Origin: Riemerella anatipestifer ATCC 11845 = DSM 15868
GTDB lineage: Bacteria > Bacteroidota > Bacteroidia > Flavobacteriales > Weeksellaceae
Assembly (NCBI RefSeq): GCF_000252855.1
Contig: NC_017045.1
Coordinates: 1,488,001-1,552,000 of the forward strand
Length of the DNA: 64,000 bases
Reading direction: 5' to 3'
The position numbers and the translations under genes were made by a program. Positions 22,290 to 23,843 of this stretch are shown here, piece after piece (the first letter of the stretch is position 1; every line of letters starts with the position of its first letter). The notes under the pieces are model-generated. The model was not told where the DNA came from, did no database searches, and saw only the letters and a list, made by a program, of their open reading frames with translations.

Positions 22290-22315
22290 ATCAATAATAG
22301 AAAATTAAATAAAAA

Positions 22316-22356
22316 AAACAGACCACCATATCAAAAAAGTGGTCTGTTTTTGTTTT
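22316..22356. terminator. Bidirectional terminator between ftsH and the NhaC-family gene
   Basis: AACAGACCAC and GTGGTCTGTT pair perfectly over 10 bp, with a T-rich tract on the plus side and an A-rich tract (T-rich on the minus strand) on the other. Confidence 0.85.
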
Positions 22357-23658
22357 TTATATTTGTGCTTTCTTCTCTTCTTTAGAGAAAAAAATCCAAA
22401 GGAGTACGCATAAAAGCAATAAAATGGGATAAAAAGTATAGCTTACTAGGTTGAAGTAATCAATACGGTTATTGCTTAGTCCAATGATAATAAGTATCTG
22501 AGCTCCATAAGGGAGTAGCCCTTGTATAACACAGGAGAAAATATCTAGTACAGATGCCATAAATCTAGGAGCTATTTTATAGTGTGTACTTATATTTTTA
22601 GCAATTTTACCTGATATAATAATAGCGATTGTATTATTGGCAGTTGCAATATCTACAAGACTTACAAGTGTACCTGCACCTAGTAAAGCAGATTTTCTTC
22701 CTGAAATAATTTTTTTTATTCTGTTAAGAAGAAATTCCATTCCTCCTGCCTTCTCAACTAAAGCGGCCAAACCACCTGTAAAAAGTGAAAGTATAAAGAT
22801 TTCTTGCATACTTGTAAAGCCTTCATATACTTTTTTACTGATTTCCAATACTCCAAAATCCAAAATGAAAAACCCTAAAGAACTACTGAATACAATACCC
22901 AGTAGAAGCACTAAAAAAACATTGATACCCGCAAGAGAAAGGATAATCACCAATAAATAGGGTAAGGTGAGAAATAATTGGCGAGTATCTACAGATGTTG
23001 TGGTATTGAGTTCGGTAGGCGTGGAAATTACGTTTGCTAGTATGACGTATAATACGCAGGTAATAATGGCTGCAGGAATAGCTATTTTAAGATTGGTCCT
23101 TAGCTTGTCCTTCATCTCACAATCTAGTGATTGGGTAGCGGCTATAGTGGTGTCCGAAATTACAGAAAGGTTATCACCTAGCATAGCACCTCCTAATAGT
23201 GCTGCTCCTAATAGGTTAATATCTATCCCTTTATCGGCAAATCCAACAACCACAGAGCCTAGAGTTACAATAGTTCCTACGGAAGTTCCAGACGATATAG
23301 AAATAAAAGCAGCGATAATAAAAATACCCAAAGGAATGTACGAGGAGGAAATTAGACTCACTCCAAAATCCACGATAATGTCTACGCTTCCTATGGACTT
23401 AGATACCACCGCAAAAGCTCCAGCAAGGAGATAGATGATACACATATTGAGTATCTTGTGGTCGCCACAACCATTTAGGAAAGTATCTATTTTTTCATTA
23501 AAAGACTCTTTAAATAAAATGAAAGCCACTACAATACCTGCCATCACAGCAATGGGAGAAGGCAAAGCGTAAAAATCGTTAAAATAAATACCACTGCCAA
23601 TAAAGGTAAACACGAATACCAATAGAGGTACAACAGAGATAACAGAGGTTTTTTTCAT
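22357..23658 (-). CDS. NhaC-family Na+/H+ antiporter-like transporter, probable methionine transporter
   Basis: A 433-residue polytopic protein with about 11 hydrophobic segments and NhaC-family motifs (SSGTSVGTIVTLG, LLGGAMLGDNLSVISDTTIAA, ATANNTIAIIISG, GLLPYGAQI). Some NhaC-family members preceded by S-box leaders have been predicted to carry methionine (MetT). Here the roughly 180-nt leader contains a SAM riboswitch-like fold, so methionine uptake is the likeliest role; that is an inference from regulation. The open frame can be read from a TTG at 23664, but ATG at 23658 (MKKTSVISVVP) is preferred. Confidence 0.85.
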   Translation of the reverse strand: MKKTSVISVVPLLVFVFTFIGSGIYFNDFYALPSPIAVMAGIVVAFILFKESFNEKIDTFLNGCGDHKILNMCIIYLLAGAFAVVSKSIGSVDIIVDFGVSLISSSYIPLGIFIIAAFISISSGTSVGTIVTLGSVVVGFADKGIDINLLGAALLGGAMLGDNLSVISDTTIAATQSLDCEMKDKLRTNLKIAIPAAIITCVLYVILANVISTPTELNTTTSVDTRQLFLTLPYLLVIILSLAGINVFLVLLLGIVFSSSLGFFILDFGVLEISKKVYEGFTSMQEIFILSLFTGGLAALVEKAGGMEFLLNRIKKIISGRKSALLGAGTLVSLVDIATANNTIAIIISGKIAKNISTHYKIAPRFMASVLDIFSCVIQGLLPYGAQILIIIGLSNNRIDYFNLVSYTFYPILLLLCVLLWIFFSKEEKKAQI

Positions 23659-23691
23659 TTCCAATACAGTTTTTAGTCTGTATCCATCAAT

Positions 23692-23699
23692 GAACCTTA
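23692..23699 (-). promoter_or_regulatory. Possible anti-aptamer strand in the SAM leader
   Basis: On the minus strand the leader carries TAAGGTTC, a perfect 8-base complement of GAACCTTA in the 5' arm of aptamer helix P2 (23810-23817). Pairing of the two would dissolve the aptamer, which offers a switching mechanism. Just downstream, ATACAG/CTGTAT can form a hairpin beside the start codon. Confidence 0.4.
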
Positions 23700-23759
23700 T
23701 TGTGTTTTTAAGAAAAATAATGTGGAATACTTAAAGACAACATTTTTTCCTTTGTTAAG

Positions 23760-23826
23760 GCTTATCTTTTTAGCACCTTGCTTGTTGTTGCAGGTTGCTA
23801 CCTTTCTATTAAGGTTCTTGATAAAT
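23760..23826 (-). promoter_or_regulatory. Compact SAM-I-like (S-box family) riboswitch aptamer
   Basis: Read on the minus strand: P1 TTATC/GATAA; AAGA junction; a minimal P2 hairpin ACCTT-AATAG-AAGGT; then the invariant S-box P3 strands AGCAACCTGC and GCAAGGTGCT, followed by AAAAAGATAAG. GCAACC, AGGTGCTAA and AGATAAG are the hallmark conserved blocks of SAM-I aptamers. The long P2 with kink-turn and the P4 helix of classical SAM-I are missing, so this is a reduced form, perhaps of the SAM-I/IV-variant type. It lies at the extreme 5' end of the transcript from the -7 box at 23836-23843. Confidence 0.72.
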
Positions 23827-23835
23827 ACAGTGGTG

Positions 23836-23843
23836 CAAATATA
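23836..23843 (-). promoter_or_regulatory. -7 box (TATATTTG) for the riboswitch-transporter transcript
   Basis: TATATTTGCACCAC on the minus strand is identical to the box in front of tRNA-Asn (40708-40715). The predicted RNA start falls a few bases before aptamer helix P1. Confidence 0.6.

Follow-up and report, generated by a model that had tools for sequence, protein, structure and literature searches.

Riboswitches of the SAM-I/IV class (Rfam RF01725; crystal structure 4L81) combine P1, an unsplit P2, a P3 core, P5 and the pseudoknot PK-2, and have no PK-1; when first described, the class was met typically in metagenome sequences (PMC2864571, in excerpt). The leader RNA described here, which precedes a transporter gene of Riemerella anatipestifer, shares all of these elements. 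It differs from the crystallised SAM-I/IV RNA, which has a P4 (PMC6890682, in excerpt), in that it lacks this helix, is A+U-rich and has the predicted expression platform described below. With SAM-I (S-box, RF00162) it has the SAM-pocket motifs in common, but neither kink-turn, PK-1 nor P4 is present; with SAM-IV (RF00634) it shares the logic of PK-2 and P5, but not the split P2 or PK-1. As for the gene, the methionine transporter MetT has been assigned to the NhaC family, transporter genes are said to carry metboxes almost always, and MetJ represses the two metT genes tested, Vc and Sh, which we read as Vibrio cholerae and Shewanella (PMC3228920, in excerpt); elsewhere MetT is called a predicted sodium-dependent methionine permease (PMC4239095, in excerpt). 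The transporter behind our leader belongs to the same family (PF03553) as the MetT proteins of gammaproteobacteria and Gram-positives, and its homologues are likewise under methionine- or SAM-type regulation; unlike the known examples, it is placed under a SAM-I/IV riboswitch, in Flavobacteriales, and its transport activity is predicted.

A cmscan search with Rfam aligned the leader to the full RF01725 model (1-99) with 65.8 bits, the gathering cut-off being 41.1 bits, and with an E-value of 1.1e-8 in the 64-kb window, i.e. the whole stretch of DNA that was analysed; the motifs of the leader are therefore not a matter of chance. This is the sole riboswitch found by the Rfam scan of the window and, at E-values up to 0.001, the single RF01725 match in the genome (2,164,087 bases). 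At the same site the SAM-I model reached 25.1 bits, under its cut-off of 44.4, and a search for SAM-IV at E-values up to 10 gave zero matches in the genome. The leader RNA is thus a member of SAM-I/IV, a class that is already known and not new. The earlier note, which had proposed a search with these models, had recognized S-box-type hallmark motifs on the minus strand, all of which are present, and had read them as a compact SAM-I-like riboswitch. Its attribution to the SAM clan stands, but what it took for a compact SAM-I is, by the RF01725 score, a SAM-I/IV aptamer of ordinary length: P5 and PK-2 are part of the aptamer, which therefore measures about 97 nt and not about 65, a figure obtained by stopping at P1. 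The interval 23692-23843 was also too short, since it ends inside the switch arm and does not reach the start codon (Table 1).

Table 1. Features of the leader and of the gene behind it, in window coordinates
Feature	Position	Strand	Basis
TATATTTG, promoter element of the Bacteroidota -7 type (TAnnTTTG)	23836..23843	(-)	sequence
SAM-I/IV aptamer, RF01725	23733..23829	(-)	cmscan
P1, enclosing P2 and P3: TTATC (23824-23820) with GATAA (23766-23762)	23762..23824	(-)	Rfam alignment
P2, unsplit, five pairs (23815-23811 with 23804-23800)	23800..23815	(-)	sequence
P3: AGCAACCTGC (23799-23790) with GCAAGGTGCT (23781-23772)	23772..23799	(-)	sequence
P5 hairpin, 3' of P1: CCTT AACA AAGG	23749..23760	(-)	Rfam model
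Pseudoknot PK-2: P3 loop ACAACA (23788-23783) with TGTTGT (23742-23737)	23737..23788	(-)	six pairs
Switch helix, aptamer side: CTGTATTTATCAAGAACCTTA (5' tail, P1, J1/2, P2)	23810..23830	(-)	duplex energy, pair list
Switch arm: TAAGGTTCATTGATGGATACAG, predicted partner either the aptamer 5' half or the start-codon region	23678..23699	(-)	duplex/fold computation
Start-codon region: CTGTATTGGAAATGAA..., predicted partner of the switch arm in the OFF state; contains ATG 23658-23656	23647..23669	(-)	fold without aptamer
metT, transporter of the NhaC family (PF03553) with methionine import as predicted function; 433 aa counted from the ATG	22357..23658	(-)	Pfam 4.9e-22

Read from the sequence, P2 has no internal loop and no kink-turn, as already seen in the earlier note, which was also right about P4: the joint between P3 and P1 consists of just five bases, AAAAA, which is too short to hold this helix. 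P4 is missing from the RF01725 consensus as well, so that the family model does not require it. PK-1 is absent, since the P2 loop (AATAGA) and the P3-P1 joint can form at most one pair. P3 carries the SAM-pocket bases CAAC and GGUGC, and the pocket motifs AUC..GA, GCAACC, GGUGC and GAU match those of the SAM-I sequence given in PMC5393176 (in excerpt). The SAM contact positions are those listed in PMC6890682 (in excerpt); their mapping onto this leader is ours. Judging from these pocket motifs, the leader would bind SAM.

How might such an aptamer act on the gene? We consider it likely that, as a SAM-I/IV riboswitch, the leader represses translation of the predicted methionine importer MetT whenever the cell has plenty of S-adenosylmethionine. 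With SAM bound, the aptamer, including P1 and PK-2, would keep its own 5' half, and the arm 23699-23678 would be left free to pair with CTGTATTGGAAATGAA and to bury the AUG (OFF); when SAM is absent, the arm would invade the 5' half of the aptamer and the AUG region would be open (ON). The direction of control, OFF with SAM, is part of this model and shares its conditional standing.

The first component of the switch is found at the very beginning of the presumed transcript. The octamer TAnnTTTG, which we take to be the consensus of the Bacteroidota -7 element, was seen by eye just 5' of P1 in all 17 leaders in which a SAM-I/IV riboswitch precedes metT. From its position, transcription is expected to set in at about 23831-23829, on the 5' arm of the switch, giving an RNA whose first base is near 23830. 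An exact 8-base alternative pairing, GAACCTTA with TAAGGTTC, had been pointed out in the earlier note; it exists, but it is the core of a longer helix of 21 pairs (19 Watson-Crick and 2 G-U) with one bulged base, which joins 23830-23810 to 23699-23678. In the window, pairing of the aptamer 5' half with the downstream region is worth -28.4 kcal/mol (z -6.7), and 0 of 500 dinucleotide shuffles were as stable. The long form of the helix is confined to three of the leaders. Two relatives (G001 and G004) retain the helix with altered letters, at z -5.5 and -5.8, and overall an anti-aptamer helix with z -3.2 or lower was obtained in 10 of the 15 metT leaders tested for switch pairings (the near-duplicates G250 and G246 were left out of the 17). 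A strong helix of this kind is missing in the other five of these 15 (G003, G027, G248, G249, G251), among which G003 and G027 have a shorter complementarity to the 3' strand of P1. When the whole aptamer was taken as the partner, z-values were weaker: -5.2 in G000, -4.2 in G001, -2.8 in G004, -1.5 in G005 and -1.0 in G029. The comparison was also extended to the initial set of 37 SAM-I/IV loci, without L024. In 24 of these 36 the z-value was -2 or below, and a control stretch lying 300 nt downstream gave such a value in a single locus of the 36. Because many of the loci are close relatives, they do not count as 36 independent observations. In this family, the usual platform of SAM-I/IV thus seems to be an anti-aptamer arm. 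In the computed fold of the leader, which leaves SAM and PK-2 out of account, the anti-aptamer (ON) state is the best one, at -42.9 kcal/mol, compared with -35.2 kcal/mol for a fold constrained to contain the aptamer; switching would consequently rely on SAM, PK-2 and the order of folding.

The second component is the pairing of the same arm over the start codon. The hairpin next to the start codon, which the earlier note had regarded as a sign of an expression platform, is present: when the aptamer is omitted, the start region of the leader folds into a hairpin of -13.1 kcal/mol, in which the switch arm pairs with CUGUAUUGGAAAUGAA...ACCU and the AUG of the window is buried. The duplex between arm and start region (-15.0 kcal/mol) was equalled in stability by 14 of 300 shuffles, i.e. 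at about the 5% level, and the cost of making the start region (-12 to +9) accessible rises by 3.4 kcal/mol when the competing aptamer is absent. This difference in opening cost is positive in 11 of the 15 leaders, with at most 1 of 60 shuffles showing one as large in 9 of the 15, and is absent or reversed in G003, G029, G248 and G249. If the opened segment is moved to -30 to 0, which in several leaders includes part of the arm itself, 3 of 15 are positive and our locus stands at -5.2. When the sequence preceding the start was paired directly with the start region, at most 17 of 300 shuffles gave as stable a duplex in 10 of the 15 leaders. Where the anti-aptamer helix is strong (10 leaders), the stretches that engage in the two pairings overlap in all but G005, but in 5 of these 9 the stretch is just 20-26 nt long, so that overlap is nearly forced. 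Taken alone, the opening cost of the OFF state is ordinary in the window, 29 of 60 shuffles being as high; the case hence rests on the exchange of partners and not on an unusually strong start hairpin. An upstream TTG at 23664, which the ORF tool proposed as the start, was set aside for the ATG at 23658; the equivalent TTG is out of frame in G004.

The same SAM-I/IV riboswitch could act at the level of transcription instead, with SAM promoting early termination or the entry of Rho and the start codon not being hidden. The anti-aptamer helix would be equally suited as an anti-terminator, and the promoter-like element lies directly 5' of the aptamer. But no terminator-like site, that is no hairpin followed by a T run, was found between aptamer and start codon (23650-23830), which is why our model is translational, and the free arm folds straight over the AUG. 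We therefore regard transcriptional control as unlikely, though it is the strongest of the competing explanations.

The transporter itself matches PF03553 (79 bits versus a cut-off of 23), and it is 99% identical to its counterpart in Riemerella anatipestifer CCUG25054 (L040). That the SAM riboswitch governs a transporter with another substrate (Na+/H+, another amino acid or an organosulfur compound) is an idea that draws on these profiles: Pfam gives just a Na+/H+ antiporter family, the NCBIfam models for NhaC (equivalog) and ArcD match below their cut-offs, and a search by sequence returned no relative in the PDB. What speaks against it is the regulation of homologues in other phyla. Homologues were surveyed at 60 loci in named genomes, 13 of which were scanned with Rfam. 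A SAM-I riboswitch lies 100 bases upstream of the homologue in a Clostridia MAG (L075), and SAM-I/IV precedes it in L041 and in L042, the latter a Neoflavobacterium MAG with the riboswitch at the same place; at the other 10 of the 13 loci, some of them on short contigs, the scan gave no SAM riboswitch. In L042, a Flavo-1 RNA (RF01705) was also matched just upstream of the SAM-I/IV riboswitch (708-785; 43.1 bits, cut-off 42).

The gammaproteobacterial homologues were scored against what we take to be the MetJ box consensus. A MetJ-box-like site, defined by 12 or more matching positions out of 16 and located within 400 bases upstream, was found in front of 39 of 46 of them, against 5 of 460 control windows taken from the same loci; at the 14 other homologue loci the score was at most 10 matches. 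With a harder control, the best of 30 base shuffles equalled or beat the real upstream stretch in 12 of the 46 loci. Three unrelated regulators of the methionine type, SAM-I/IV, SAM-I and MetJ, thus appear on one gene family, and methionine import is for this reason the best reading of its function, in agreement with the MetT-type transporter named in the earlier note and with the description of MetT as an NhaC-family methionine transporter (PMC3228920, in excerpt). A different substrate seems improbable to us, slightly more so than transcriptional control, and the gene is best read as metT, a putative methionine importer whose function is suggested by the regulation of its homologues. Downstream, at 22310-22360 of the window, an inverted repeat followed by a T run was noticed by eye after the metT stop and before the convergent ftsH; it resembles a terminator, and was not flagged by the terminator scan because its loop exceeds the limit of the scan.

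Evidence that the aptamer fold is maintained comes from an alignment of 16 distinct aptamers of the main type, 11 before the transporter and 5 before TonB-type receptors; P1, P2, P3, P5 and PK-2 were counted, and the divergent subgroup described below was left out. Of 418 cells, 97.6% are paired, compared with 92.0% in shuffles and 30-41% when the partners are slid by 1-3 columns. Two-sided changes occur in 28 cells (8.2 in shuffles), and the covariation score was equalled in 0 of 500 shuffles. Counted by pairs, those with a two-sided change number 7 versus 4.7 in shuffles, a value reached by 6 of 500, and the number of further standard pair types across the 16 aptamers, 13, is not raised over the 13.4 of shuffles. 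Compensated pairs, for which the earlier note had suggested looking in orthologous leaders, are found in P2 (4 of 5 pairs), in P5 (2 of 4, both gapped, in 5 and 8 of the 16 rows) and in PK-2 (1 of 6); P1 and P3 are invariant in the 16 leaders and thus uninformative either way. The change in PK-2 is from C-G to A-U and was seen in 4 leaders out of the 15 without a gap at this pair; it is possibly a single event because all four sequences belong to one genus. PK-2 has 91.6% of its cells paired, its outermost pair being broken in 8 of 16. We relied on this column-wise count for PK-2 in place of a longest-complement test, in which at least 5 pairs were found in 29 of 37 loci against 43% of 1162 swapped-tail combinations and which is weak because related tails resemble each other. 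As far as sequence comparison can tell, these compensatory changes show that the aptamer structure is maintained. The alternative that the RNA is a minimal or degenerating SAM-I riboswitch, stripped of kink-turn and P4, would account for the common P1/P3 core and the 25.1 bits to RF00162. It was rejected as highly improbable on the model scores (the SAM-I/IV model matches over its full length, 40 bits better), on the presence of P5 and PK-2, and in view of the compensatory changes, which show an RNA that is maintained.

The distribution of the class was studied in 320 genomes of the same taxonomic family. RF01725 was found in 103 of them, in 99 above the cut-off, by a search with stricter filters that may miss weak matches, and an orthologue of the transporter (E-value up to 1e-60) is present in 70. 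Comparison of coordinates by eye placed SAM-I/IV directly upstream of 17 of the 70 orthologues, in five genera, the other 53 having no SAM-I/IV match at this position. At 19 loci of these 53 that were scanned, no Rfam RNA was found at the gathering score (the positive control was found), so MetT often is not controlled by a riboswitch; at several such loci, inspection by eye showed a promoter-like element immediately at the start codon.

SAM-I/IV elements also precede genes of other kinds. In 13 of 13 loci examined (L017, L018, L026, L027, L030-L036, L038, L039), a short ORF lies between the riboswitch and a TonB-dependent-receptor-like gene, and the end of such ORFs falls within or close to a series of Cys codons (e.g. 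...CMCCCF* or MMHSMCCCY*). A double control of these loci by SAM and by the supply of cysteine, through attenuation by a leader peptide, is possible. In L178 the TonB receptor was checked by Pfam, and no further ORF of at least 120 aa comes after it on that strand within the stretch.

A divergent group that also passes the RF01725 cut-off (L006, L009, L013, L014, L021, L022, L025, L028, L029, L037) carries CAACCGAG and has CACGGTGG or TACGGTGG as its core, and in 8 of its 10 members, judged by eye, the P1 pair beside the SAM pocket has A for G, i.e. a C.A mismatch. The elements occur in several copies per genome, some of them 0.65-1 kb apart, and precede proteins without a Pfam match (two were tested). 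Of four neighbourhoods of such elements that were inspected, three are next to genes for defence or of mobile type, namely Lamassu LmuA/LmuB in L183, BrxA/B/C in L184, and, by eye, HsdM-like and integrase-like ORFs in L186; L185 looks chromosomal, again by eye. A variant ligand or an element of gene cassettes is possible for this group.

The genome that carries our leader has in addition two SAM-I riboswitches above the cut-off, with 93.2 and 79.6 bits. One precedes a metX-like gene (MetX_acetyl, 6e-43, below the cut-off) and the other a metH-like gene (TIGR02082, 1.9e-151, below the full-protein cut-off, for the first 337 aa only). Among 18 genomes searched, namely the 17 with SAM-I/IV before metT and G002, 14 contain SAM-I above the cut-off. 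We read the ORFs behind 29 of the 36 above-cut-off SAM-I matches, one of each kind by profile and the rest by the likeness of their starts; the first ORFs are metX-like, metH-like or O-acetylhomoserine-sulfhydrylase-like, with a TonB-dependent receptor in two loci (L176 and L177). G003, G005 and G029 have SAM-I/IV and no SAM-I above the cut-off. A division of labour, with SAM-I for synthesis and SAM-I/IV for uptake, is thus frequent and not universal. A wider proposal, which we offer tentatively and with somewhat more doubt than conviction, is that the SAM-I/IV riboswitches of this family share a common, possibly undescribed platform, in which one arm is complementary both to the aptamer 5' half (tail, P1, J1/2, P2) and to the surroundings of the start codon and the ligand decides which partner it takes, and that genomes with both classes reserve SAM-I chiefly for making methionine and SAM-I/IV for importing it. 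The titles and abstract openings searched, with most subscription journals outside the search, contained no earlier description of SAM-I/IV before metT or of this platform.

In sum, the leader is well supported as a SAM-I/IV riboswitch, and the gene behind it probably encodes a methionine importer; the class is ordinary and the assignment of a function is what is useful. A class first met in metagenome sequences gains a host gene and a readable, if predicted, switching mechanism, and a transporter with an unclear substrate gains a function that can be tested, methionine import. Since one genome appears to use two related classes of SAM aptamer, one for synthesis and the other for uptake, the question of why both have been kept becomes testable as well.
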